A stretch of DNA of 64,000 nt from positions 4,856,001-4,920,000 of the forward strand of contig NC_070568.1 in NCBI RefSeq assembly GCF_026914185.1, in the 5' to 3' direction. This DNA is from Puccinia triticina (taxonomy: Eukaryota > Basidiomycota > Pucciniomycetes > Pucciniales > Pucciniaceae). Every line of letters begins with the position of its first letter. Position 1 is the first letter of the stretch. A model generated the notes under the pieces. The model saw only the letters and a program-made list of their open reading frames with translations. It was not told the DNA's origin and ran no database searches. The position numbers and the translations under genes are program-made. Below are positions 18,854 through 61,787 of this stretch, one piece after another.

Positions 18854-19559
18854 GCATGATCTCCTGGGCATGAGACTAAACTGTTCAACCTCAAATACTA
18901 ACCTTAAAAAAAAATAAAAAAATAAAAATAAAAACTACTGCTAATACAACCTTTTTTTTCACTTTCTTTTCTATTAACTTTCTTCCCTTAGAAATCTTTA
19001 CCAAGTCAAAATATTGCTAAATCTGGAAAAATCATAAAAATCAAAAATCATCATAAACTCATCAAAAAACATCAAAGACTCACTTCAAAAATCAACATAA
19101 AACACCCTAACTCAGAATCTTAAATTTTAGTAGTTTCAATCTTATAAGTTGGGGGAGGTGCTCTCACTTCTCTCATCCTTGAATCTTTTTTCCTTATTTT
19201 CTCTCATCTATGTTATTCTCCTAGTTCTCTCTTTGGCTCTCTCTGTTTCTCTCTCTCAAAGGATCTCAACTCGCGCATATAGGTTGGGGACAACCATTTT
19301 AAGTTGGGGGAGGGGTTTGGAGTAGATTACTAGGACTAAAAACGTTCACTAGAGCAGGATGGCCAACAAAAGAAGCTACATAAATATTTTTTGAGGTTTT
19401 AGACTCGTATCTCCAAATTTTTTGATTTTTTTTGTTATCTATCGATTTGTTTCTGTTTTATACTTTTCTTACCCCTATGAGATGTCCATCACCGAAGGAG
19501 GCGGCATCTGAAGATGGAACAAAGTCAAAAAAGGCGAACGAAGTCATTAGCTTAAGGAC
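18854..19559 (+). other. A1 post-pol region with repeated polypurine-like motifs
   Basis: AAGTTGGGGGAGGTG at 19146 and AAGTTGGGGGAGGGG at 19301 resemble the true polypurine tract before the 3' LTR (23451). Otherwise AT-rich and noncoding. Confidence 0.6.
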
Positions 19560-20515
19560 CATGAAAGCCAAAGAACGAAGAAAAAGAAACACGAACTTAG
19601 AAAGGAACACGACGCATGGCAGCGCGGTAACAATGAGAGGCGAATCAGAAGAGTTGGACACGGCCGTCTCTCTCCAAAGCGTTGGCCGCCGGGTATTGAG
19701 CGAAGTGACTGACCATGGCAGAGGCGAGTTCTTGATAGAAGACAGTGTAAGCTTGCGGGGCAAATCGGTACTGATCGTATTGGCCGAAGTCGGGGCGGCG
19801 GTCAAGTAAAGCCTCAACTTGATGAGGGGCAAGGCGATGGTAGTTGTCCACGTCATATAACCCGAAGGGGATTGGGGAGGGTACGAACTTGAGGCTCCAC
19901 CCAACTGTTGTCATTGGAAGTCCCCGATCCAACGGGCTCATTGGGAACCCGGTTCACATACGGGTGATCAGGATCAACCCGGGGAGTGCTGGCTCTAGCA
20001 GCTGGAGGAGGAGTGAGAGTCGGATTGATCATGGCTCGATTGGAGATTAAAAACTATGTAAAATGATTAGTTTCAAGCTTTAACAAAAGGGTTCATAAAG
20101 AAAAAAAGAAAAAAAAGGGAACGTACGGGACCGGTACGGGCGCGAGTGCTGCCAGTTGCACGACCACGGCCTCGACCACGACCATTTCCACGACCACGAC
20201 CACGACCACAAACGCGCCCAGAGGCACAAGCTTGGGCACTACCACCTCGTCTAGAGCGGAGAGGAGGCGCACGATATATGGCATCCTCCGCGCCGCGGAT
20301 GGCCGCTCAAACTTCAGAAGTGGAGAAAGGCTTCTCCCAAAGATCTCACGCTCAAGCTGACGGATAGAGCGGCCCACAGGGGCAGGAACAGGCTGAGCAA
20401 TGGCCTTGTCAAGGTCCATGCCGGGAGCGGAACTTGGAGGGGCGATGGGTGAAGCATTGGTGTTGATAGGAGCGGAGGAATCAGAGCTGATGGAAATGGC
20501 AGTTGGGTCTTCCAT
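19560..20515 (-). pseudogene. Antisense gene of A1 (RG-rich protein), frameshifted
   Basis: Opposite strand to pol. Exon 1 starts at ATG 20515 (MEDPTAISISSDSSAPIN) and runs to 20127, where GTACGT opens an intron closed by ACATAG; exon 2 starts at 20053. In an adjacent frame exon 1 encodes an Arg-Gly-rich tract (GRGRGRGNGRGRGRGRATG). Exon 2 includes PFGLYDVDNYHRL, ALLDRRPDF and FAQYPAANALERDG, homologous to exon 2 of the A2 antisense gene. Frameshifts in both exons and a TGA after GRVQLF show decay. Function unknown. The RG-rich part suggests nucleic-acid binding, which is only an inference. Confidence 0.6.
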
Positions 20516-22169: not shown

Positions 22170-23065
22170 CGGAGGAAACAATGCCCTCGATGACCGGCAC
22201 AGACCGGTCATTGAGAGGGTATATCACATCTCTCTCGATGACCGGCATTCCGGTCATCGAGAGGACACATCCACCGGTACAAACCGGTCATCGGGAGGCT
22301 ACAATCCTCTCGATGACCGGAATAGACCGGTCATTGGGAGGCTACATCCTTCTTGATGACCGGAATAGACCGGTCATCGAGAGGCTACATCCCTCTTGAT
22401 GACCGGAATAGACCGGTCATCAAGAGGCTACATCCCTCTCGATGACCGGAATAGACCGGTCATCAGGAGGTTACATCCCTCCCGATGGATGACCGGAGTA
22501 GACCGGTCATCGAGGGGACACATCCCTCTTGATGACCGGTCTAGTGAGAGGTCACATCCCTCTTGATGACCGGTCTATGCCAGTCATCGAGAGGGATGTG
22601 TTCTCTCGATGACCGGAATGCCGGTCATTGAGAGAGATGTGTTCTCTCGATGACCGGAATGCCGGTCATTGAGAAAGATGTGTTCTCTCGATGACCGGAA
22701 TGCCGGTCATTGAGAGAGATGTATCCTCTCGGTGACCGGTCTACTCCGGTCATCGGGAGGAATGTAACCTCCTGATGACCGGTCTATTCCGGTCATCAAG
22801 AGGGATGTAGCCTCCCGATGACCGGTCTATGCCGGTCATCGAGAGGGATGTAGCCTCCCGATGACCGGTCTATTCCGGTCATCAAGAGGGATGTAGCCTC
22901 CCGATGACCGGTCTATTCCGGTCATCGAGAGGGATGTAGCCTCTCGATGACCGGTCTGTACCGGTCATCGAGAGGATTGTAGCCTCCCGATGACCGGTCT
23001 ATTCCGGTCATCAAGAGCGATGTAGTCTCTCGATGACCGGTCTGTGCCGGTCATCGAGGGTTTTG
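22170..23065. repeat. Array of about 20 self-complementary units, about 42 bp each
   Basis: Each unit contains ATGACCGG..CCGGTCAT, itself a dyad, joined by GAGAGG(C/G)TACATCCCTC-type spacers. To the left of about 22540 spacers read CTACATCCCTC; to the right they read GAGGGATGTAGCC, so the array is also mirror-imaged about its centre. No ORF is sustained. Confidence 0.9.
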
Positions 23066-23450
23066 TTTCCTCCGGATGGCCGGAGTGTCTCAACCCGGCC
23101 ACCTGTCACCGCACGGCACCCCCGTGTGCGGATAGTTTTTTGATGGGAGCTGGTGGCGCGCACGGAGGGGGGCCCGACGTCACGTGACGTTGAGTCAACG
23201 GAAATTCCCGTGCGCAACGAGTTTCCCTCCGTGCGCGAAGTAAACCCGAAAATAAATACTAAATAAAAACAAAAAAAATATGAATACAAATAATCAACAT
23301 ATTTTTTCTTTCATATCTTTTTCTTCATCTATCAACTTATCAAACCTACAAACTCAAACACAGACATCAACAAATTTCAACCAAACTTGACATCAAAATA
23401 AAATCAAACATAAGTCAACCTCACAATGAAATTTTCTGGGGACAGACAAT

Positions 23451-27987: not shown

Positions 27988-29026
27988 TGTGGTATGCTTT
28001 ATGGTTACCCATCTAGCCCATTTCAAAATATCCTTTTTTTCTCATATGTACACTCTCAAATCAACCAATACGGCAACACCACAGGATTCTATGGCCAATA
28101 CTACACAGGACACCATGGACAACACACCTTACACCCCTCTGGATCAGAAGATACAACCCCTTCAAGACACCATCATTCAGTTACATACACACAAAACACC
28201 ATACTCAGGTCACGTAATCCGTTACATGAACCACACTTACCCAGGACATGTAATCCGTTACATGGACCACCCTGACAGCTTGTCTAAACCTTTACATATA
28301 CTTTACCTCATCAGCTGCACTCATTTCATTGTGTTATGCACATGTCATGCAGTGTCATGCAGTGTTATGCACACTTGATGCAGGCTTATGCAGTCTGACA
28401 GTTGACAGATGACATCATGCAGGTGTCAAGATAGCAAAAACCCCTCATGCAGCTTGCAGATGACATCATTTGACAGGCCAGGCCAGCTAAAATATCTCAC
28501 CTCCTATTTCTCACTAGCTAAATTCCCTCATATGACATCATGACCTCATGTGACCTGTCAACCACCAGCCAAAATACCTCATTGTAGCTTTCAGGGCAGC
28601 TAAAACCCCTCATTCTCTTGTTCCCCTGGAGCTAAAATGTCTCACTCTTTTCTATTTAGGGAGGCTCTCCTCCCCCCAGTTGTAATTTCTCTCAGCAAAC
28701 TACTTGCACTCAGCTTACCCCATAACAGTACAATACTTGCTCCCTCTACAGTATTAGCCCCACTCTATATTGTGGTTTTACACCCTTACATACAAATTAC
28801 AACCTCATTACAACACTTACACATCAGCTACATTACCATAACCCTTAAGCCACCTGCTCAAAGTAGGCTATCTTTTGATACACCTCCACTATCACTACAT
28901 AAACCTTCCAATTGTAGATTGGGGGGCTTGTTTTAGTGTCTAGTGACCCAGGAAAGGCAGAGGTAACCTCATTCATCCCTTTCCGCACTCAGCAAAAGGT
29001 TCTCAGGAACGCTTTTGAGCTTTACA
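27988..29026 (+). repeat. 5' LTR of A2
   Basis: TGTGGTATGC...GAGCTTTACA ends. The promoter block lacks a canonical TATAAAA (CTATTTAGGGAGGC instead). 3' end block shared with A1. Confidence 0.9.
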
Positions 29027-29599
29027 AGGGAGTCCCCAACGTGATAGAGGATTTCTACTTTGAACACGTGGCTTAACATATCTCTAACCACTGTTGCGAA
29101 TTTTATAAGTACTCTTAGTGAATCTAAATTAGTTTGGTGGCAGGAAAACTTACCTGTTACATTAAAGTGAAGAAACATATCTCTGTCAAGACACTTTCCG
29201 ATATCATTATAACAATCAGTCCTTAACATATTCCTAGTAGAACTCCGGATTAATTAGTTAAATACTTGAAAAATCATTTATAAGGTCAGGAGACGAGGAC
29301 CAATTAGAACTGACGTATTTGTTGTGAGCGTTTAGGATATATATTTTAACTACCAGGTGGTAGCCGGCATAGACTCACTGCGGACAGATTTTAGTTGTGA
29401 TAAACCTCTACGCATCTGAATATTTGAACAACGTATCATACTATTTAGGTTTTTTTAGTATTATCATTAGTTTAGTATAGTATAACCCCCCCAACTCGCC
29501 CTGGAAGAAACCCAGAGATCAAACCCCTTAGGACAACTACTAGCAAATATCGAACGACTCATCTAACATAAAGAATCAGAAATCAGTTAAAACTCAGAC
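29027..29599 (+). other. A2 leader
   Basis: Starts with the same AGGGAGTCCCCAACGTGATA as A1 and shows similar layout to the gag ATG. No ORF. Confidence 0.6.
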
Positions 29600-32500
29600 A
29601 TGGCTTTTCCACAGAATGAAGACTTGGAAAATGTCCTACCAACAAACAATCCAAATCCACTCGGACTATTCAATGGAACTCAAAACAGTCAGAACACTAG
29701 AATGAATGTTGATCCGCTACCTCCACCACCCATGTCTCACACTCGAACAAGGACCTATCGTGGACGGCTGGCCAACAATAGAACTACTCAAGAAAACACT
29801 CAGACTCACCCTCCTGGAACCTACGGCTTACCTCAAGAACTCGAAGTAAACAACCCAACCAGGACGGAACCTAAAAGAAAAGTGATAATTATCAAAGCGG
29901 CAAACTTATTATACGATGGCGAAAACTTCAAGGAATTTCTGGACCGATTTGAACTGGCCGCGGAAGTTTATGGAGCAGAAGGATATGACATGGTTCGGCA
30001 GATTTGCAGCTTTGTTGGACCTGAAGACTTGAAGCAAGAACTGGAATCGATGGACGGATACGAACAACGGGACTGGAACATGCTTAGGCGTAGCATGAAG
30101 GAAATATGGGGTGACACCCATGCAAAAATTTGATTCACCATCCGGGACCTGCAAAACTTCGTGGAAGAACAGGCAAAGGCTGGTGGACCTAAAGGATTCA
30201 AAGAATACAAGAACTACAAATCAAAATTTTTATTAATAACAAAGTATTTGGTTGCTAATGAGCACATTAGAGACCAACAAGACGTTACTCACCTGTTTTT
30301 TATGGCTTTTTCAAAAGAATTACAGAAATCAATCAAACAGGACCTGATTCCTTACGGCAAAGATGGTTATCCTAAGACGCCTCACCTAGAAGACTTGATG
30401 GATGTGGCTGAGGATGAAGTCCGAGCTGCAGCAGACAAAACATTTGTAGGAAGCGGTTTCAGTGAAGCTAATCGAGCGATGCAAAAGAAGTTAGACAAGA
30501 AGAAAGGCAACAGCAAGAAACGGGAAAAGATGGTTGAAGAGAATCCCCCGGAGGTGCTGCAGACGCAAGTCGACAGTCTGGCAAAAGCAATCGATGCTTT
30601 AACTGGCAAGTTAGTGAACCCACCAAAGGCGGAATACTCTCGTGGAAATGAAAGGCCAAGTGGACGACTATACGAACCCCGACCTTGTACCTATTGTCAT
30701 CGAGAAGGACATTCAGCATTTTCTTGTTATGAAGCTCAGAAGGACGAAAGAGAAGGCTTGGTTAAGCGTGACGGACGTGACTTTTGTTTTCCCAGTGGAG
30801 AGAAGATCCCAGCGGACAACTCAAGACCTATTTGTGTGGTAGTGGCTGCGGACTCCGCAAAACCTAAAGCAAAAGTAACGGCAGCATTCAGAACCGATAA
30901 TCCAGCAGTGTTTTCAATCAACAGTGAAAGACCTCAGCAAGAATCCGACTGTACCTCTTCAATGCACAAAATCGACTCATGGGAACCTCCAAGGCTTGGA
31001 TCAGCTAACTTTGAAAAAGTAAAATTTGAATCCAATGTTGCGACAACTAGAGCAGAAGCGCTTCGTGGACGACGAAAACCTCCGGCACAAGCGGATGATT
31101 CGGCAATGGACGTGGATCAGGAAGTCGGACCAGAAGAAGTTATTCGAGAAGTTCCAGCAACTAGGAAGACTCCCGGCCAAATCTTGGAACCCAACAGGCA
31201 ATCAACACCATCAAAGAAGGAAAAGTCAGCAGAAACAGCTCTAGTGACGGAACTGGACAACTTGAAGATACCAACTACCTTTTCTCAACTTACGGCAATC
31301 TCTCCAACTTACGCTCAAGAAGTAATCAACAAACTCCAAGCTCGAATCCCTGGATACAAAACTTCTACAATGTCATACGTGAATGGCAACAAATCGGAAC
31401 CCAAGGTTTCAGCTTCGATGTTACTTAACAAGGAGGAAGAAGATTCGGAATACAACTGTTACTATAGCTGCGCGTTAGGATTTATCGACACTCAAATCTC
31501 CGGACACAAAGTACCGTTCATGGTGGATTCTGGATCGATGGTCAATGTAATTCCAAGCCAGGCAGCTATTGATCTGGACCTAGAAGTAGTGAAGGTGGAG
31601 ATCCCAATGAGAGGCATTGGCGGAGAGAGATGTGATATCAAAGGAGTAGTGGAAAACTGCACCATTGGAATTGGACGATTCTCGGGACCGGTACACCTCT
31701 TTGTTTCACCACAAGCTCAGGAATGTATACTCGGACGGCCTTTCCTTTTCGACTACAATTGCACTTTGGACTATCCAGGGACTGGCGAATTTCTATCCTT
31801 TCAAGGGGATATTGGAAGAAGGATTACGGTACCAATAGCTAAAGTTGGACAAGGACAAGGATGGAATCAGTTAAAACATTTAGGACCAAGCCCCACACAG
31901 ACTGCACAAACAACTGCTTACATGACACAACATTCAAATCAGTCACGCTTTTTGGACGACACGGACTTGGTCAAGATTCGAACTAAAATTTCAAAGAAGT
32001 TGGGCTGGGTCAAAAACATGTGTTTACGTCTGCGGAAGAAATCAGAAAAAGAAAAACCTGTACCTCAGGTTGGGGCAAAACCACCAACCCTGGACGAAGA
32101 TTGGCGAATAAATAGTTTGTTAGCCACCGGGCTAGGCGCTTCAGCACAGAAAGATCTCTGTAAGAATTGGAAGGAGGAAAACATGTGGTGTATGACAAAA
32201 TACAAACCAGTGGCAAAGAAAGTTCGACCTATCAATCAAGCCATGCCACAATCAATCAACCCACCTCTTCAACAACCAGCTTTATCACGGGATCCTTACA
32301 AAACACCTTTAACACCTAATCCACCAGAATTCCAACCTACAGCAAAAATCACTGAAGAGCGCCTGAAAGTCATCAACTTTGGACCTGAAGGATGGCTCTG
32401 GCCAGAGGAACTCAAGCTGTTTAAACATCTCAATACCATTCGACAAAACTCTCTCGCATTCTGTCCGGCGGAACGTGGATTGTTGAAACACTCTTATGGC

Positions 32501-35335
32501 TTACCTTATGTCATACCAGTGGTAGAACACACTCCATGGCAGAAGAAACCAATTCCCATTCTGGCGGCAATTAAAGAAGAATACACTGAACTAGTACGGG
32601 AACGAGTTAGGACCGGCCTTTACAAACCATCAACATCAAGCTACTCCAGTCCAGTGTTTTGTGTTGCCAAACACAACGGAAAACTCAGAATTGTACACGA
32701 TCTACAGGAAATGAACAAGGTTACAATCAACGATGCTGGCCTGCCCCCTGCAACAGAGGAGTTTATTGAATCTTTTGCTGGAAGAGCTTGCTATGGACTC
32801 GGTGATATTATGGGAGGATACGATGAAAGGGAATTAGCGGAAGAATCAAGACCCCTCACAACTTTCGACACTCCATTAGGACGATTCCAGCTTACTCGAC
32901 TTCCTCAAGGTGCAACCAATTCAGTAGCGGTATATCAGGCTCAGATGATGTGGATCTTGCAAGATGAGATTCCAGAACATGTGGGTGTGTTCATCAACGA
33001 CGGCGGCATCAAAGGACCACGAACAACCTATGATGGACAAACTTTGAAGGAAAATCCGGGGATTAGACAATTTATTTGGGAATACGCACAAACATTGGAA
33101 CGGATATTATTCAGGGTAGAAGAAGCAGGACTCACAGTTTCAGGGAAAAAGTTTTCTTGTTGCGTCCCTGCTCTGGACATCATTGGACACGTGGTTTCTC
33201 AGATTGGACGACAAGTTTCTACACAAAAGAAAAACAAGATATTAACCTGGCCCACACCTTCAAATGTTACGGAACTTTGCGGATTTCTAGGAATAATCAC
33301 TTACGTACGAATATTCATTGAAAATCTGTCTGAAAAGGCAGCACCTTTACGACAGCTCACCAGGAAGGACGTTAAGTGGATTTGGACGGACAAATGCGAT
33401 CAAGCTTTCAAGCAACTCAAGGATATAATTGGCAAAGATATCGTTCTCAAAAGCATTGACTACTCAGCGGACGCAGGATTGATTAAACTGGCGGTTGACT
33501 CAAGCTTCATAGCGGCGGGTGCGGTGTTGATGCAACAGGAACTCAAAACTGGATTGGATCGACCTATACTTTACAAATCAATAGTATTTTCACCAGTGGA
33601 ATCACGGTACTCTCAGCCTAAGTTGGAGTTGTGCGGAGTAGCTAGGGTTTTGAAAAAGTTACAGATCTACCTTTGGGGCCAACACTTTGAACTCCAAGTG
33701 GACGCCAAGTCATTAATTCAGATGATAAACTCTCCATCATTACCCAATGCACCTATGACTCGATGGGTGTCATTTATTCAGCTATTTTCCTACGACATAG
33801 TTCATAAACCGGGGAAAACTTTCACATTACCGGATGGGCTTTCAAGATGCCCTATTTCTAGCGACGACGAGGAATTCTACGAGGACCAGGATGACTTTGA
33901 CGAGGAGGAACCCCTGATCAAACCCTGTTACACATTTAGGATTTGTACTCAATCAACAGTTCTAGAGCTCAAGGAATGGGAGTCTCCAGGATATTGGCGG
34001 AACCTTTGACATTACCTGGAAACCCTGGAACCTCCTGATGGAATGGACAAAGTGGAATTTGCAAAATTACGGCGGAACTCAGCTAAATTCTTCAGTAGTG
34101 ATGGACGACTTATGCGGAAACACTCACCCTCTCCACAGATAGTAATTTCTAAGGACACTTATCAAGAAGAACTGCTACAACAGGTTCATGAAGAATTGGG
34201 GCATCGTGGAATAGAAGAAACTTATCAGCGATTGGTAACTCGGTTTTGGTGGCCCAGCCTGAAGAAGAAGGTCAAGAACTGGGTTCGAAGCTGTGAAGCT
34301 TGTCAAAAACGGGATCCAACAGTACCTAGGGAAATTTGAAATGCAACTGGGGATAGCTACATTTTTGGACGAGTTGCTCTGGACGCATGTCACATCAAAG
34401 CTGGTCAATACAAATATCTTATTGTGGCACGGGACGACTTATCTGGATGGGTTGAGGCTGCCCCTCTGGTCAAACTCACTGCAAGTAATGTGGCCAAGTT
34501 TCTTTTGGAAAACTGGGTCTACAGATATGGTTCAATCAAGACAGTAACAGTGGATAACGGCGCGGAATTCAAAGAAGACTTCATTGAAGCTGTGAAAAGT
34601 ATTGGAGCAACTCTAAAACCTACAACACCTTACTATCCGGAGGCAAATGGAATGATCGAACGTGGACATCGACCCATCAAGGACGCTCTGGTTAAAATGT
34701 GTGGCGAATCTGGTGGAAAGTGGAGGGAGTATCTTCCACTAGTTTTATTTTCGGACAGGATCTCAACAAAGCGGACAACTGGATTCACTCCCTACAAACT
34801 TGTATTTGGACAACTACCAGTACTACCAGTAGATTTGGAAATGGACACCTATTTGGGAATAGATTGGTTAGAAGTCAAAACTACAGACCAACTTTTGGAA
34901 GCTCAGGCAATGCAACTCGAACGACGGGAAGAAATTCTGGAAGAAGCTCACACTAAGATGATGAAAGCAAGAGAGGCTTCTGTCAGATACTGGGATAGAA
35001 AAATGGCAGCTCGACTACGGCGACCTTTGGACACTGGCGAACTAGTACTCATCTACAATAAAAGCTTGGAGGATCAGTGGGGAAAATTATTTTCAAATCG
35101 CTGGAATGGTCCCTTTAGAATCAAGAAACAACTACCTAAAGGATCTTATGTGCTGGAAGAATTGGAGGGGACAGAACTTCACCAAAACTATGCGGCATCT
35201 CACATTAAGCGGTTTTATCCTCGAGGACGACCCCTGGATCAAGTCATTGGAGATGAACAGGACCCTGAACTCAACAGTCAAGATGAAGACAGTCATCACT
35301 CTTCTGATGAAGAAAACCCTGATTCTTCTGATTGA
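29600..35335 (+). pseudogene. A2 gag-pol polyprotein with three stops and a lost RT aspartate
   Basis: A single frame of 1912 codons encodes gag and pol. The CX2CX4HX4C zinc knuckle is CTYCHREGHSAFSC at about 30685. Protease has FMVDSGSMVNVIP at about 31518. RT is at about 32350-33320, RNase H at about 33480-33850. Integrase has an HHCC finger at about 34190-34320 and D-D-E residues in LDACHI, TVDNGAEF and PEANGMIERGH. No chromodomain; the tail is acidic (SSDEENPDSSD). Stops at 30131 (CGA in A1), 34007 (TGG in A1) and 34336 (CGA in A1). The RT catalytic box is FINDGG (about 32990) where A1 has FIDDGG, so a metal-binding Asp is lost. Unlikely to be active itself. Confidence 0.92.
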
Positions 35336-35960
35336 GCATTACCTCCTGGGCATGAGACTAAACTGTTCAACCTCAACTGTCAATAATTAAACTGGTTAAA
35401 GTCTTTATACTTCAAATCTCAAGCACAAACTTTAAAAACGCTCAAAAATTAATTCAAAATCAGCATTAAAACACTTCAAGAACTTCAAATTCCAGCAAAT
35501 CACTTCGAAAATCAACACATAAATCAAACAGACAAAAAGCTCACTGGTTTCAATTTTTTTTAAGTTGGGGGAGGTGTTCTCACTTCTCTCAAAATCCTCA
35601 GATTGGTACTCTGAGCTCACTTTTCTCTCTTATTCTCACCCTCTCTCAAGATTCCCATTCTCACTGTGAAGGTTGGGGACAACCTTTTAAAGTTGGGGGA
35701 GGGGTTTGGGTTACTTTAACTAACAGTAGGATAGACTAAAAAAAAAAAAAAAAAAAAAAACAATTTTTTTAAGTTTTTTAGCTATAAAGATTTTTTTTAG
35801 GTTTTATATTATTTGACGATGTTTTTGGATTTTGGTGGATATTTTACCCCTGAGAAGTGGTTGTCCATCGGTATCGAGGCATGGAAGGCTAGCAGAATAA
35901 TGACAGGAAACAAGTTAGAAAACACACCCATGGAAAACAAATAACGAAAAAACGTACAGA
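35336..35960 (+). other. A2 post-pol region
   Basis: AT-rich, with polypurine-like AAGTTGGGGGAGGTG (35562) and AAGTTGGGGGAGGGG (35690), and a long A-run near 35740. Noncoding on the plus strand. Confidence 0.6.
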
Positions 35961-37055
35961 TCAAACGGTGTGGCGAGTCATGGTGCAATAACGGCGGGTT
36001 ATGAAGCGGAAGAGGCTGACTCGGCTAGCGCGTTCTTCGGCATTGGCGGCGGGGAAACGTTGGAAGTGGTGCACCAAGGCGGACATGATGGATTGGTAAA
36101 GATCGTCAATGTACTGAGGAACAAACATGTAGCGGTCGAACAACTTGGGAGCGGATCGACGGTCTAGAAGGGAGACGACTTGGTCTCGAGTCAAACGATG
36201 GAAGTCGGCCGGATCATAGAAGCCCAGGGGATTCGGGGAAGGAACACGAGTTTGTGGAGTTAGGAAGTCCTCCGCGGTGGCGACGGAACTCGCAGAGTAG
36301 ACGGAAGCAGAGCGACTAGGATATAAGGAAGTAATGTTGCTCCCACTAGTGGGAGTAGTGGTTGGATTACTAGCAAGAGCTGGGGGAAGTTGAGGCATGG
36401 CATTGATGATGGCTCGGTTGTTCATCATGAACTATAAAAAACCAGCCCTCAGCTTGGAACTTATAATAATTCACAAGTTGGGAGGAGGAAGCGAACATAC
36501 CGTCTCGGGATAAAGGTCATGTTCTCCCCTGCAAAAGGGTGGGCGGTACGTACGGGTGGCATGACCACGGCGTAAGCCATTGGCACGACGGCCTCCGCGA
36601 TTTCCTCCACCACCTCGACCACCTCGGCCACCTCGACCAACTCGTTCGCCATAACCAGCAACCCCACGCCTAACGATGGAGGTTGAAGAAGCTATGGAGA
36701 TGGGATAGTCTTGGGCGCCGGGAAGAGGGCCAATACAATCAATCAAGGAAGGCGCAGGACAAAAAAAGGGAATGGGAGCTTCATCTAAACTGCTCATGAT
36801 AGGGCTACAGGTAGAACGCGACTGGCAAAATTTATTTGGACTAGTTGGATACTGGGGAAGACTACGAAGTTGGAGACGAGCAGATGAGGAGAGGAAAGGG
36901 GGAAGTCCCTGGCCTTTAAGCCCAATGAGTCGACTACCAGAACACGGTACCACCACCAAGTAGACGAGGCCGACCGGCGAGAGAATCTTCGTCCCCAAGC
37001 TTCTCCCAAGGGGAGCCATTTCCGCGAATGGGTCAGGAGGTCGAAGAAGGAGCAT
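35961..37055 (-). CDS. Antisense gene of A2, RG-rich protein of unknown function
   Basis: Encoded opposite to gag-pol between pol and the 3' LTR. Exon 1 37055-36501, intron 36500-36433 (GTATGT..TATAG, 68 nt), exon 2 36431-35961 starting TTCATGATG; frames join in phase 0, about 341 residues. Exon 1 ends in a Gly/Arg tract (GRGGRGGRGGGGNRGGRRANG). Exon 2 has PLGFYDPADFHRLTRDQ, LLDRR, FVPQYIDDLYQ and RFPAANAEERASRVSLF. It is open throughout. About 40 of 78 residues match the A1 copy without gaps, and the intron sits at the same place, so selection on the protein is likely. The start is uncertain: ATG 37055 is the first in frame, but an upstream exon is possible. Plant Tat-lineage elements have antisense ORFs here; homology to those is not implied. 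Confidence 0.6.
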
Positions 37056-38127
37056 CTCTGTCTGGATCACAGACAGAGACGGCGGTCAGTTACTACAAAA
37101 AGATTGAAAAAAGGAAAAAGAGGCGGCTTACGTGAGGGTCGGTTGAGGATCTTGACGGTCGATCCGATTCGAAGACGAAGGAAGGAGGCTTTTTTTGTTA
37201 TACGGCTGAGTCAAGGAATCAAGTTGGGGGAGGATATGACCTGGTATCCTCCCTGAGCAAGCAATGAAAAGGTTTGTCAGTCAAAGAAACGAGCACGAAC
37301 CTGGATATCTGGATATACACCCTACTGGCCAGGATATCGGAACGGGCCTCGAAGTTATCGGACACGGACGGCAAGGGCGGATCAGCGGCCAGTTGGAAGA
37401 CAACGGATGATTGGCGGCATTAGACCGGCGTCCGCGACCGGAGACTCGACAGAAGCCTGGACCCGGGCAACACTACATACTCGAACCCGACCCCGGGAAA
37501 CCTATGGGTTACCGGGGCCCTCTAAGACATGTACATACGAATGCGGGCGCCGCAGCTCGCGTAGCCCCAGTTAAACCCCTGAAGCGGCTTTGGACTCGAA
37601 CCCAGAGCCCGAACATTACTCGACCACCGATCATCTGGCGTGCGACCTCATGCGCACTGCGCAACGCTCTGGCGCTACCCTGCCGCAAACCAGGACATCA
37701 CATGCACATTTACACAACCCTATCAACACAGATCAACAAAACACTAAATTTCCCTTTCTCTCTTACCATTTTTTTTTTTTTTTTTTTTGCATATATATAT
37801 ATTAACCTCAACTCTTTTTTTTTAGAGAAATCCAATTAAATACATACATAAAAAACAAGAAACAAACAAATAAAAAGACAAAACAATAATAAAAAAATAA
37901 GAGAAGACAATAAAAATACATTCACAAATTGAAAACATAAATAATCAACAATTTTTTTTCTCTTCTTTCTTTTCCCCTTTCTTTCTTCCATCAAAACCTC
38001 AAGACTAGCATTAATAACTCATACACAAACAACAAACATTATCAAGACAACTTCAAGACATCAAGACACAAATCTACACTTTGGATAACAGCAATAATCA
38101 AAACAGAATTGTCTGGGGACAGACAAT
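37056..38127. other. A2 3' region, noncoding
   Basis: AAGTTGGGGGAGGATATGACC at 37221 is a further copy of the polypurine motif. T-run near 37772 and A/T-rich DNA follow. No conserved ORF. Confidence 0.5.
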
Positions 38128-38141
38128 AAGTTGGGGGAGGA
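38128..38141 (+). promoter_or_regulatory. Polypurine tract of A2
   Basis: AAGTTGGGGGAGGA directly before the 3' LTR, preceded by CTGGGGACAGACAAT as in A1. Confidence 0.8.
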
Positions 38142-39180
38142 TGTGGTATGCTTTATGGTTACCCATCTAGCCCATTTCAAAATATCCTTTTTTTCTCATA
38201 TGTACACTCTCAAATCAACCAATACGGCAACACCACAGGATTCTATGGCCAATACTACACAGGACACCATGGACAACACACCTTACACCCCTCTGGATCA
38301 GAAGATACAACCCCTTCAAGACACCATCATTCAGTTACATACACACAAAACACCATACTCAGGTCACGTAATCCGTTACATGAACCACACTTACCCAGGA
38401 CATGTAATCCGTTACATGGACCACCCTGACAGCTTGTCTAAACCTTTACATATACTTTACCTCATCAGCTGCACTCATTTCATTGTGTTATGCACATGTC
38501 ATGCAGTGTCATGCAGTGTTATGCACACTTGATGCAGGCTTATGCAGTCTGACAGTTGACAGATGACATCATGCAGGTGTCAAGATAGCAAAAACCCCTC
38601 ATGCAGCTTGCAGATGACATCATTTGACAGGCCAGGCCAGCTAAAATATCTCACCTCCTATTTCTCACTAGCTAAATTCCCTCATATGACATCATGACCT
38701 CATGTGACCTGTCAACCACCAGCCAAAATACCTCATTGTAGCTTTCAGGGCAGCTAAAACCCCTCATTCTCTTGTTCCCCTGGAGCTAAAATGTCTCACT
38801 CTTTTCTATTTAGGGAGGCTCTCCTCCCCCCAGTTGTAATTTCTCTCAGCAAACTACTTGCACTCAGCTTACCCCATAACAGTACAATACTTGCTCCCTC
38901 TACAGTATTAGCCCCACTCTATATTGTGGTTTTACACCCTTACATACAAATTACAACCTCATTACAACACTTACACATCAGCTACATTACCATAACCCTT
39001 AAGCCACCTGCTCAAAGTAGGCTATCTTTTGATACACCTCCACTATCACTACATAAACCTTCCAATTGTAGATTGGGGGGCTTGTTTTAGTGTCTAGTGA
39101 CCCAGGAAAGGCAGAGGTAACCTCATTCATCCCTTTCCGCACTCAGCAAAAGGTTCTCAGGAACGCTTTTGAGCTTTACA
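38142..39180 (+). repeat. 3' LTR of A2
   Basis: Same length and apparently the same sequence as 27988-29026, indicating a very recent insertion. Confidence 0.92.
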
Positions 39181-56083: not shown

Positions 56084-57537
56084 CCCACCGCGCACACACG
56101 ACGCCGCAGAACACACATCCAGGACACTCGACAAAACCTCAAGCTAGCTCCTTTCCTTCCGGGCCGACACACATTCATGGCCCGCAATCTTGCACACATC
56201 TTCTCATGTTGTAACCCTTATTTTCTCTATCCTCCATCCCTGTGACCCCACCGATTTTTTACCTATGAGCTTCTTTTCTTTTGATCAGGCGATCATGGCC
56301 ATGCACCCAGCTTGCCAATTTCTCTTTGACCTCTGTTCTTGTTCATTGATACTAGAAACATCATTCCATGTCGTAAATTAATAACCATCCATTCCGATCA
56401 TGAGGTTTTGCAATGAAGAAATCGCCGCCCTTGAAACTCTGCCAGACCCTTGGCTCCTTCCAATACATCCTTGTTTGTTTGTTTTTTTAAAGCTTCAGCT
56501 GTGATCGGGCCCGCGGATACCAGAGTGCCAGGCGATGGCGCACAATCAGCCGTCCTCTCGGGATCCGCAGCAAGTCTGCCTCCCCCCAATAGCTCGCCCA
56601 TCCTGCCTTATCACAAGTCCCTTGCTCCGCGGGCCCTGGGTTGGCGCGAAGCGCAAGCTCCGGAGGAGGGACTTGCAGGTACACGATTTTGGCCGGGTTT
56701 TTCTCCCGCCCCCCTTTCCGGTGTCTTCCAATCACTTCACACCAGAGGCACGAGATCAACGGCCAGGCTTGTCGCTTCCTTTGGATGCCCATCGCCCCGT
56801 CGTTCCTCCCCACACTGCCATCCCATTCCCATCTCAACGTTCCTCATTGGCGGGTGTTGGGGCAGACCTGTGCACGCCAATTCCCCGACATCCCATGCGG
56901 ATTCACTCACGATGCAGAGTTCTATCTTCCAACCACCGCTGCTTCTGGGGACGGCACGCCCTCCTCCCCTTCGGTGCACTTCCCGCCATGTCCAGAGGAC
57001 AGGGCAGCCGAGAGGGCCAGCCATCCTCTGCGCTTCAGCTTCTCACCATGAGTGTGCGCTGTGGACCGGCGATTCGACGAAAAAGAGCTGGCCAAACGCG
57101 TCGATTCTCCGGAAGCTCTCGCACAGAAGAATGCCACTAACTCACAATGAGCCTCCCGTTGGGAACGGGAGATGCTTCGCATCGGGGTGCGCTGCGTCCC
57201 CGGCCCGGGAGGCTTAGATAAGTCAGCCCACACACAACAACGAAGAGTTACTCAAGCATCTATGTTCGATCTACATACAACTACATACACCATGGGAAAG
57301 CCATGTCAGAAAAGCAAGCAAGTATTGACAGGAAGAAGGCGAGAGGTACAGCCGGGCGGGGCGGGCGGAGATGCGCGGGGGCCGGGGCAGGGGAGGGTCT
57401 ATCTGGGCAAGTCTACGGGGATACGGCGGGGTACAGATTTGGATACAGGTATGGGACACACAGGGGCGCGGGCAGAGACATATGTACACAAGCGCAAAAT
57501 AGCAAGCACCACAAACATATACATACGAAAGAGGGCG
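56084..57537. other. GC-rich intergenic region between convergent genes
   Basis: Overlapping ORFs up to 255 codons exist on both strands, but they start at non-ATG codons and match nothing I recognise. High GC explains their length. Likely 3' flanks of the secreted gene and of insulysin. Confidence 0.45.
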
Positions 57538-60500
57538 CTAGAGCTTGGGCTCGCGCGGGACCCGCGCCGGCGCCGCCTTCCAGTCGGCCGCGGGCGACGC
57601 GGGGGTCCCGACGGCCAACGAGGCCTTCAACGCGACCCGGTCGGTAGAGAGAGCGGGGGGATGGGCGAGGCCGACGGCGGCATGGACGTCGCGGATGTGG
57701 GCGTCGAGGGCAGCGAGGCGGGCGTCGAGGGTCTGGATGGCCTCTGCGGCTTGGCCGGGGGCCTTGAGGGTGGGGTGTTGGGCAAGGAAGGCGCGGAGGG
57801 CGGGGGCGTCGGGCTTGGTCTGGAGGAAGGCGGCGTCGGCCGGCCCTCCCCCTCCGCCGACGGCCGCGCCGACCTCTTGCAGGACCTCCGCCGGCACAGG
57901 GACGTGCAGGGAGACCACATGGGTCGAGCACTTCGCCCGGCCCGCCGCGCCCGGGACGATCCGGGCGCGGAAGAAGGCCTCCATGGCCGGCTTGGAGATC
58001 GTCTTGATCGCCGCGGCGTCCCCGAACCGCTGCTCGAAGCCGTAGTACCCCGCCTTGATGTGCATCCAATAATGCGACGTCCTTTTCCATCCGGCACAAA
58101 GAAGTCAGAGATGGTGTGGGATGATAGGGGGGGGGGAGGAGGGGGCTTACTCGTCGGCCATGTTCTTGAAGTCCTCGCCGGCCTTGTTGGCCAGACTGGT
58201 CTTCATCTCCTCGAACTCCTCGTCGGGCATAGGCACGAGTTTCTCGGTGAGGAACCAATGGAGGAAGGCCTCGATGCGGGCCTCGACGAAGGCGGGGGCG
58301 CGTTCGGACTGGACGACGATCTTGAGGGCGGCCTGGCCGGGGGCCATGGCGGGGAAGGAGCGGACGATGTAGCCGAGCTGTTCCTGGGTGCGCAGCCGGT
58401 TGAAGCAGGCCTCCTGGACGATCTGCGCCAGCAGCATCAGCTTCGTCCGCGTCTCCGTCTCCGCCATGTCCCCCACCGCCACCATGTAGTCCACCGCGCT
58501 GTTCACGTTCGACGGGTCCGCCAGCGCCCGTTGGTAGACCAGGTTCGTGCCGCCAGGGATCAGCTTCGGCCGTACCGGCTTCAGCTCCGCGGGAGCCACC
58601 GGCGCGAGCCCAAAGATCGCCCGCGGCAGCCCCGCGATCGCCAGCGCCTCGTCCGCAGTCATGTTCCCGTGCACCAGACTCTCCACAAAGCCTCGTCCCA
58701 GCACCTCGGGCACGAAGCGCTCGACGTCCTCCGCCTGCAGATCCGCGAGGAGCGAGAGCTTCTCCTCGTAGCTGTAATGCACCTCCGAGACGATCGAGCC
58801 CATCCAGTAGCTCGCATGGGCGTACGGGCTCTCGAGCACGAAGTTCTTCCACCCCCGCTCCGCCTCGTCCTTCAGGATCTGGAACCGCTTCCGATCCACC
58901 TTCATCTCCTGCAGCCCGCGCAGGATCGTCTCCATCAACAGATGCAGCTTCTCGTTGTAGCCGTCCACATTGAACACCAGCCCGTCCCACACACTTCCGA
59001 CCTCGTATCCTAGCCCGGCAATCTCGGCTTCGTAGAGCTGCTCGTTGAGCGCATCCTTCAGGAGCCGGGAGATGAAGTAAGTCTTGAGCGAGTTCAGACA
59101 GCTGGCGTTGGTGATCGGGCTGCAGAGATGGCAATTAGATATATGGATCCTCAAAAAAAAGAGAGCGATTTTCGAAAGGAAGCTTACTTTCGTAGCATCA
59201 AGATGACACTAGCTCGCGGCAGCCACCACCGGTCGTCTTTCTTGTGCCACACGCGCCCGAAGCGATCATCGGAGAGACAGGTAGGTCTTCGGGTGGGCAG
59301 ATGGGTTGGATTGTCGATGCGCTCGACGTGGAAGTTGGTGGAGATGAAGGAGTTGGGCGGGGGGAGTTTGAGGGAGTGGATGGGGAGGGAGGGAGTGCGG
59401 AGGGAGTCGGGCAGGGGCTGGATGGTGTACTCGGTGCCATACCACTGTTCCTTCTTGTCGTAGCTCAGGCCGGGCAGGGGCGTCTGGGTGCCGAGCAGGA
59501 TCCGGCAGTTGTCGGGCCGCAGCCGGTCGAGATGCCCCTGGATCAGCGGGGCATCGTAGGTGTCGGTGAGGTAGACGGACGAGATGACTTTCTCGCGCGG
59601 ACAGGGCCGGCGCAGCCAGGTGGCCAGACTGGTCACGTACGACGAGGGCGGCGAGGGGGACTTGAAGCGGAAGCGGATCTCCGAGAGCAGGGCTTCCTGT
59701 CTGAACGCCCATTCCTGTGGGGGGGTGGTCTTGAGCAGGTCGAGGTAGGCAAAGATGATCTGGACGACCTGTTGGTAGTTTTCTGAATGCAAAAAATGTT
59801 GTCAAGATGAGGATGGGTCAAATATGAGTGGGAAGATGAGAGCACGCCGCACCTAATCCGTCGGCTGTGAGGTCGAGGGTGATCTTGAAGAGGTCGAAGC
59901 CGGAGACGCCGCCGCTAGCGCCGGCGGAGAGGGAGTTGACCCAGCCGAGTTTTTTGAGACAGCTCATGATCGAGCCGGGGCCTTCGTGGCCGATGTGGAA
60001 GCTGATGAAGCCGAGGGGCTGGGTGTCGTAGTAGGGGGCCTGGTCGGGCATGGGGAAGGTGATCTCGAGCAGGTTGGTGTCCTTGACCATCCTGGCGAAG
60101 ATGAGCTTGGCGAGCTCGGCGGGGGTGTAGGGCGAGCCGTCGAAGCGGTCGGGGCGGATGCTGCGGTTGGGGACGAGGCTGAACTTGTCGACGACGAGCG
60201 CGGTGAGCTCGTCGAGGGGCTCCTTGGCGAGCACGGCGAGATGCATGGTGTTGGAGGAGTAGTGTTTCCCGTAGAACGCGAGCAGCTCCTGGCGGATGTC
60301 GAGGCCGAGGGCTTTCGGGGTCTCGACTAAGGTTTTGAGGTTGCCGGTGCCGAATCGCCAGTAGGCGTGGTGCGGGGAGGAGGTGGCCTTGTCGAGCTGG
60401 AAGAGCCGCCACTGGTCGTTCTGGAGGTTCTTGGAGTTCTCCGAGTCGACGGCGCGGATCTCGCGCTCGGTGCAGGACTCGGTGAAGGTGGGTGCGATGA

Positions 60501-60978
60501 AGAACTGGGCGAAGCGGTCGAGGGCGCCGGGGAGGGCGGAGGGGTGGACGTCGAAGTAGTAGACGGTGTTGTCCATGCCGGTGTAGGCGTTGGAGTGGCC
60601 GGCGTTCTTGGAGAGATACTCGGAGTACTCGTTCTCTGCGGGGTATTTCTGGTTGCCGAGGAAGAGGAGGTGTTCGCAGAAGTGGGCGAGGCCCTGGAGG
60701 TGTTCGGGGTCGCTGAGATGGCCGACGTTGACGTCCATGGCGGCGGCGGCCTTGTCGGTGGCCGGGTCGTGGATGAGGATCGCCTGGAGCTGGTTGGCGA
60801 GGGTGATGATGCGGTACTTGCGGCTGTCGGCGGCGGAGGTGATGATGGGGCGGTCGAAGAGGGCGTAGGGAGGGCGGCCAGCCTGGGCGGGGATCTGGGT
60901 GAACGCCATGCTTCTGGTGGCGAAGGTCCGGGTGGCTGGTGGGCTCCTGGCTAGTCTGTGGAGCGTGGTCCGCCGCAT
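57538..60978 (-). CDS. Insulysin / insulin-degrading enzyme (M16 zinc metallopeptidase)
   Basis: Four exons on the minus strand: 60978-59853, 59782-59188, 59119-58151 and 58081-57538, with introns of 70, 68 and 69 nt; 1077 residues. Degrades short peptides in a closed two-half chamber. The inverted zinc motif is H99-F-C-E102-H103, with the third ligand E180 in AVDSE, the same 77-residue spacing as human IDE. The C-terminal half has LRTQEQLGY, including the Arg and Tyr that bind substrate in IDE. Two start codons are plausible. ATG 60978 gives an Arg-rich, acid-free leader (MRRTTLHRLARSPPATRTFA), a likely mitochondrial presequence. ATG 60909 gives MAFTQIP and a cytosolic form. The protein ends REPKL, only loosely like a peroxisomal signal. 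Exons are strongly GC-biased. Confidence 0.92.
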
Positions 60979-61351
60979 CCGTCCCGAGGATTCTTGGCAG
61001 GGAGAAAACAACAGGCCTCGCCGGGAAAGGGAAACTTGCTGATGTATGCACATCTTTTGTGCGCAGGGGCGGGAGGCCCCCTGCTGCGAGCCAGCTGCTC
61101 TCACCAGCCGAGCCCTAACGGCTTCCGGTATATAGCTCTGGGCAGACGCGGGGCGGCTCTCCACACACCGCTCCCATCTGCCTCGGCCGGCCTGACCTGC
61201 TTGCTCAGGCTTGATCGCTGGCTCGGGGCAGGCTGTCTCTCTGAGGCAGGGGGAGACAGAGCGATCTTCTGCCCTCCTATCTGCCGTCCTGACCAACCAT
61301 GAGGGTCTCGGTTCGTTTGTGTGGGATACATTACTTGAGCAATGATCATGG
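60979..61351. other. Spacer between uS14m and insulysin genes
   Basis: 373 bp separating two minus-strand genes; holds the insulysin promoter. No clear TATA box. Sequence around 61190-61260 is GC-rich. Confidence 0.4.
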
Positions 61352-61787
61352 TCACCAGACTGCCTTTTCGAAGCCCATCCACTTGTCCCTGGTCGCCTTG
61401 AGCTTGAGCTGGTGCTGTGTGGGTAGTGTGTGTGTGTTAGTGTGGGCTGAGTAGTGGTGAGTGAGTGGGCTGTGCTCAACTCGACAGAGGCCCAGCTTGG
61501 CGATGACTCCCCTGCCCTTGCCGGTGAGGATGCATCGTTCGTGGATCTTGGTTGGGTGGGAGTCCGAGGGGAGGTTGTTGAGCGAGAGCTGAGCCTGGGC
61601 CCGGAGCTGTGTGTTGAAGTCAGTCACTGTCTAGTTGCTGCTGGCTGTCTGTGGTTTGGCTTACTTTCATCGGCAGGCCTTCGTTCCTGGCCAGGTAGAG
61701 GTACGCCCTCCGGAGCAGCTCGGTGCTTGCGAACTGCTCCCTGCGGGCCATGTCCCGGAGGGTCCTGATGTTGATCGGCGACCGCAT
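61352..61787 (-). CDS. MRP2: Mitochondrial small-subunit ribosomal protein uS14m
   Basis: Three exons: 61787-61665, 61606-61481 and 61414-61352; introns of 58 and 66 nt with CTGAC and CTAAC branch-like sites, 103 residues. Start MRSPINIRTLRDMARREQF is followed by LLRRAYLYLARNEGLPMK, then LRAQAQLSLNNLP. Next comes the signature RCILTGKGRGVIAKLGLCR, the uS14 RC-x2-TG-R/K-x-RG pattern. The last exon reads KLKATRDKWMGFEKAVW, ending in the family's KA-x-W. The length matches uS14. It is part of the head of the mitochondrial 30S-type subunit. An alternative 3' splice site (61630) would add eight codons but leaves a 34-nt intron, so the 58-nt intron is preferred. Confidence 0.88.

Follow-up and report, generated by a model that had tools for sequence, protein, structure and literature searches.

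What does a minus-strand gene do between the integrase and the 3′ long terminal repeat (LTR) of a retrotransposon in a rust fungus? We addressed this question in a 64,000-nucleotide stretch of the Puccinia triticina genome (the window; RefSeq assembly GCF_026914185.1, contig NC_070568.1, forward-strand positions 4,856,001–4,920,000), which holds the Ty3/gypsy element A2 and its neighbour A1. A first-pass annotation had proposed a spliced gene on the strand opposite to A2, and a broken copy at the same place in A1. We favour, as the probable account, an accessory protein gene that lies antisense to gag-pol, is spliced, is maintained by selection within one clade of Puccinia Ty3/gypsy elements and encodes a nuclear regulator of its own element. 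The gene and its A1 counterpart comprise the following parts.

36501–37055, minus strand: exon 1 of the A2 antisense gene, beginning at the frame's first ATG, with an RGG-rich 3′ part.
36432–36500, minus strand: intron of the A2 antisense gene, 69 nucleotides, GTATGT...TATAG, phase 0 in the frame shown.
35961–36431, minus strand: exon 2 of the A2 antisense gene, 156 amino acids plus stop, with an N-terminal motif around NNRAII and a helical C-terminal part.
20054–20126, minus strand: intron of the broken A1 antisense gene, 73 nucleotides, GTACGT...ACATAG, at the position seen in A2.
19612–20053, minus strand: broken exon 2 of the A1 homologue, starting at 20053, with its frame split into 19853–20053 and 19645–19953 and one TGA.

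Both minus-strand frames of A2 are present (36471–37085, 204 amino acids; 35961–36431, 156 amino acids). The exon 1 frame, taken from stop to stop, starts at 37085 and stays open for 195 codons up to a GTATGT donor 69 nucleotides before exon 2, and the acceptor TATAG is followed directly by TTC. The intron is where the first-pass annotation had placed it, except that it ends at 36432 and not at 36433. The broken A1 copy has an intron of similar size (73 versus 69 nucleotides) at the matching position, as proposed. Where about 40 identities over 78 residues had been claimed, our recount gave 41 of 80 ungapped columns in exon 2, the last A1 column being the stop, against a mean of 5.6 and a maximum of 15 in 1,000 shuffles. 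Codon positions 1, 2 and 3 match at 65, 66 and 34% in this ungapped stretch. In the 6.5 kb that run from the end of the LTR through pol, A1 and A2 share 84.7% DNA identity, but between pol and the 3′ LTR they align only in short islands, which bears out the earlier remark that the surrounding DNA is hardly alignable.

The further carriers that such a gene predicts were found across the genome. Exon 2 of A2 gave 40 matches as a genome query and five other lineages gave 84, 95, 99, 74 and 78, in lists that overlap and in which some rows are fragments of one locus. We examined 58 loci (L009–L066) at the DNA level, all of them picked for matching. In all 50 that had an integrase the frame was antisense and 3′ of the integrase, the 3′ LTR itself falling within the examined stretch for only some; in the other eight (L011, L015, L017, L032, L035, L038, L040 and L054) that stretch contained no integrase. 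The loci fall into at least nine element lineages with 21–78% C-terminal identity between lineages, highest for L045 with L050 and L059. Stop-free full-length copies numbered 47 of 68 in the six query lineages (7/10, 6/7, 7/10, 3/12, 12/15 and 12/14, with 3/12 in the L042 lineage) by a hand count that leaves frame shifts uncounted. Named homologues are hypothetical P. triticina proteins and one protein from P. graminis f. sp. tritici (P0013), while in P0012, from a 10-kb Joint Genome Institute (JGI) contig, an RGG-bearing N-terminus is joined to the shared C-terminal part. The RG-richness noted for exon 1 holds in the A2 and A1 lineages, with six to eight RG pairs in A2, L010 and L021, and not in seven sequences from other lineages, which have none and are richer in proline.

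Splice signals recur with the frame. A GTRWGY donor lies 61–76 nucleotides upstream of exon 2 in 12 of 12 representatives, and likewise in L065 on reading. The intron occupies the matching place in eight of the nine lineages at base level; in the L042 lineage the first intron is seen from frame translations only. Counting the 58 loci plus A2, 43 of 59 copies carry a candidate donor, and in 34 of these 43 at least 50 codons of open phase-0 frame precede it. The nine that fall short are L011, L013, L014, L016, L022, L027, L033, L036 and L038, and L013, L022 and L036 have no clean junction. A second intron precedes the C-terminal exon in L065, L066 and L042. Among NCBI gene models, PTTG_29125 (P0008, from a sister copy of A2) splices exactly the A2 intron, with a start further in than the first ATG of A2, at MAPLGRSL, and P0005 and P0006, from a sister lineage, have an intron at the matching position. 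The P. triticina gene set was annotated with RNA-Seq, most of it strand-specific (PMC5295586).

Selection on an encoded product, as the first-pass annotation had supposed, is supported in exon 2 by ratios of nonsynonymous to synonymous divergence (dN/dS) that range from 0.10 to 0.54 between sublineages, away from the value near 1 that would speak against it. The clearest pairs gave 0.10 (A2/L014), 0.25 (L050/L059), 0.11 (L061/L063) and 0.13 (L026/L037); others gave 0.33–0.36 (L042 or L044 with L039) and 0.49–0.54 (L045 or L046 with L058 or L054). Differences between sublineages fall mostly on third positions. The corresponding proportions of nonsynonymous and synonymous differences (pN/pS) in five sublineage pairs were 0.080/0.496, 0.084/0.277, 0.042/0.308, 0.034/0.229 and 0.060/0.154 (one-sided Fisher P from 1.6e-20 to 0.0044; 1.6e-20 to 0.022 across all eight tested pairs). 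Close copies gave dN/dS values of 0.34–0.57, and two pairs with very few changes gave 0.97 and 2.5. In a five-frame control on the four clearest pairs, four frames had pN/pS of at least 0.9, one reverse frame 0.25–0.31 and the true frame 0.14–0.29; low reverse-frame values are put down to shared third positions as a candidate cause. The substitution pattern shows purifying selection on exon 2 between sublineages.

Several observations weigh against the account of a spliced, selected protein gene. The sublineage pairs were picked by hand, and synonymous sites between the nine lineages are saturated or nearly so. For several of the weaker pairs, the true frame gives no lower value than the reverse frame: in L045/L058 the reverse frame has 0.33 against 0.56 for the true one, and in L046/L054 two other frames (0.36 and 0.51) fall below or equal the true one (0.52). 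Exon 1 gives little support, with dN/dS of 0.027/0.029 against L009 and 0.007/0.026 against L010. An alternative exon 1 frame is as long or longer in the lineages of L021, L050, L059 and L066. Because that frame is equally or more open, openness alone leaves the phase unfixed there, and it is partly fixed by junction residues and the NCBI models. Two of those models, P0002 and P0007, use a different donor and exon 1 frame with the common acceptor. The spliced antisense gene is a prediction from DNA and NCBI gene models. Its proposed function is argued by analogy, since the protein had no relative in Pfam, among PDB sequences or by fold.

The antisense region has a history partly its own. Between A2 and L021, which belongs to the A1 lineage, 94% of the integrase is shared and 51% of the antisense C-terminal part; measured by protein identity, the antisense protein is diverging much faster than the integrase. 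Between A1 and A2, about 580 of 1,039 LTR bases also lack a blastn match, mostly in the 5′ half (presumed U3). Strict co-inheritance with pol is rejected in part: antisense and integrase trees agree in their main clades, yet L066 and the L045/L058 pair are placed differently and blocks have been exchanged. L050 and L045 match at 84–97% until the antisense frame reaches its 3′ end and at 47–73% over the next 1.9 kb or so, and L061 and L063 are 97–100% alike before the frame, 63–95% over it and 93–98% after it. Fast evolution is insufficient as the sole cause, because synonymous distance in the antisense exon exceeds that of the integrase in the same pairs (0.82 versus 0.13; 0.40 versus 0.018). 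Together with the blocky identity profiles, this shows that the region has moved between elements as blocks, and part of its divergence reflects the age of the exchanged blocks. We infer a single 3′ module. It is conceivable, though we hold it doubtful, that a single exchangeable 3′ cassette encodes a self-specific regulator and unites the antisense gene with the polypurine tract and the LTR's promoter part, with template switching swapping the cassette and antisense introns restricting the protein to transcripts of integrated DNA. Such swapping would yield elements with near-identical gag-pol and different regulators.

Polypurine tracts flank this region in A2.

35671–35702, plus strand: hairpin-like GGTTGGGGACAACC followed by an internal polypurine tract copy (35690–35702), between integrase and antisense gene.
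38128–38140, plus strand: polypurine tract adjoining the 3′ LTR, AAGTTGGGGGAGG, with identical 13-mers also at 35562 and 37221.

The 13-mer AAGTTGGGGGAGG has seven matches in the window against 0.12 expected, at 35562, 35690, 37221 and 38128 in A2 and at 19146, 19301 and 23451 in A1. At least one exact copy lies between integrase and antisense frame in 49 of 50 loci, and at least two in 30 of 50. The internal tract is a candidate central polypurine tract or a candidate relic of module capture. The hairpin GGTTGRGGACAACC plus tract occurs at 140 places in the genome, and its reversed control at none. As a marker of antisense carriers the combination fails: 44 of 100 listed places (of the 140) have no antisense match within 2 kb, on a match list that is a lower bound, and at the hairpin places L067 and L068 the open reading frame lists, read by eye, hold no recognizable antisense gene. 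Because places occur with no antisense gene detected nearby, hairpin and tract are not tied to that gene. Locus L011 has an open exon 2 and both internal tracts, with integrase undetected and the part 5′ of the pol end unlike A2.

The carrier A2 has the layout of a Ty3/gypsy element.

27988–39180, plus strand: element A2, a Ty3/gypsy LTR retrotransposon, with LTRs at 27988–29026 and 38142–39180.
30134–34009, plus strand: open frame (from the open reading frame list) for aspartic protease, reverse transcriptase and RNase H (Pfam PF13650, PF00078 and PF17917).
34340–35335, plus strand: integrase open frame (Pfam rve, PF00665), the sense neighbour of the antisense gene.

Protease, reverse transcriptase, RNase H and integrase follow in order between the LTRs, with a polypurine tract next to the 3′ LTR and CCGC as a short duplication of the target; in this copy the integrase frame is separate from that of the other three. 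A2 looks like a recent insertion, because its LTRs are 100% identical across 1,039 bases and CCGC stands at either flank. Elsewhere in the window, the 3′ region of A1 holds an array of roughly 43-base repeats with long inverted arms (22238–23129), an inverted repeat at 2494–2762 has 115-base arms that are 94% complementary and 39 bases apart, and long open frames lie on both strands at 57151–61623 (620 amino acids on the plus strand, 573 and 601 on the minus strand).

The antisense protein matched nothing described and appears to form a family without known relatives. The matches in protein searches came from Puccinia, apart from one JGI protein, and included no named host family; the TRP28 domain (PF04195) had no match in the 13 members scanned, at E values up to 1. 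The predicted structure of exon 2 has a mean predicted local distance difference test (pLDDT) score of 58.6, with confident helices only at 105–125 and 131–153. It gave no fold match at E below 0.1, and because the model is poor overall we leave its fold matches uninterpreted. Literature listings, whose coverage omits most subscription papers, mentioned no rust elements with an antisense accessory gene.

As a kind, antisense accessory genes are already known from plant elements and from one fungal element. HBZ of human T-cell leukaemia virus type 1 (HTLV-1), a bZIP protein with a spliced form, shares the antisense orientation and differs in its bZIP nature, its element class and its host; we liken it by description only. 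HBZ is an antisense nuclear regulator of its retroelement (PMC11963269), with an antisense promoter in the 3′ LTR (PMC7264820). Plant antisense additional open reading frames (aORF-3R) include Gene23 of Grande and those of RIRE2 and of Retand, the last with TRP28, and maize Gene23 is said to be nuclear and to have a promoter of its own (PMC7264820, PMC11963269). They resemble the rust gene in their antisense position between pol and 3′ LTR; the rust gene differs in its conserved intron, its fungal host and the lack of TRP28 in those 13 members. The first-pass annotation knew of no fungal counterpart, but as a kind brtn precedes the rust gene: Boty-like elements of Botrytis cinerea carry it as an extra antisense gene in the interval from pol to the 3′ LTR (PMC7264820; source Zhao et al. 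2011, known by its title in the reference list of PMC8365987). Brtn, likewise from a fungal LTR element, has an ascomycete host, and we set the two side by side by description only. CERV of Caenorhabditis elegans Cer1, an accessory nuclear protein from a spliced LTR-retrotransposon mRNA that is needed for genomic RNA export, is likened in the same manner and is not described as antisense in the abstract (PMC10309623).

On the account we favour, the start site of antisense transcription would lie within the 3′ LTR or in the interval that separates it from exon 1. Since it is sense RNA that would be copied, and the intron would stay unspliced there, the intron would outlast retrotransposition. 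The protein would be a nuclear factor directed at the element that encodes it, with the element's RNA or chromatin as its most likely site of action, given the RGG-rich exon 1 of two lineages, the proline-rich exon 1 of others and the helical C-terminal part, and may tune sense expression, the export of RNA or the number of copies, in line with what is reported or proposed for HBZ of HTLV-1 and Gene23 of maize Grande. Its target may lie in the same 3′ module, a reading suggested by the block exchange of the protein and by the divergence that it shares with the LTR's 5′ half. By inference from these analogies, nuclear self-regulation is the likeliest role.

Among other explanations, a weaker but real contender is that the protein restrains its element at the level of the particles and not of expression, as p22 of Ty1 does. 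The position, fast divergence and block exchange of the antisense protein suit a self-specific antagonist. Profile comparison with two A2 gag-side frames was negative, which argues against an origin from the element's own Gag and against a p22-like truncated Gag, and gag-pol is conserved between A1 and A2 at 84.7% DNA identity whereas the antisense protein is not. We think it improbable that the antisense RNA does the work, through double-stranded RNA or small-RNA control, with the open frame incidental. An RNA-only role has been put forward for plant elements (PMC7264820) and exon 1 shows little sign of constraint, but conservation of amino acids in spite of random third positions, together with a dN/dS far below 1, is unexpected for a non-coding RNA.

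Similarly poor odds attach to the capture of a host gene that travels along and does nothing for the element. Introns and a strand of its own would suit read-through capture, the module has internal polypurine tracts next to it, and the eight of 58 loci with no integrase in the stretch examined allow for carriers outside intact elements; against this stand the presence of the gene in at least nine element lineages, selection within them and the lack of a named host family among the matches. A last alternative is that the frame is a wrong-strand misreading of an envelope-like gene or some other sense gene, since env occupies just this place between pol and 3′ LTR. Yet the sense frames over A2 exon 2 hold 3, 7 and 12 stops, which refutes that reading in A2 and makes it scarcely credible in general.

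The roles of antisense accessory genes in LTR elements have been called unknown in a review (PMC7264820). The frames, conserved splice sites, antisense position, spread and exon 2 selection can be read directly from the genome. With at least nine lineages of the family in a single genome, an intron from which the strand can be told, selection that can be measured and blocks exchanged in nature, existing RNA data can serve to test whether the antisense protein of a retrotransposon works for the element that carries it.
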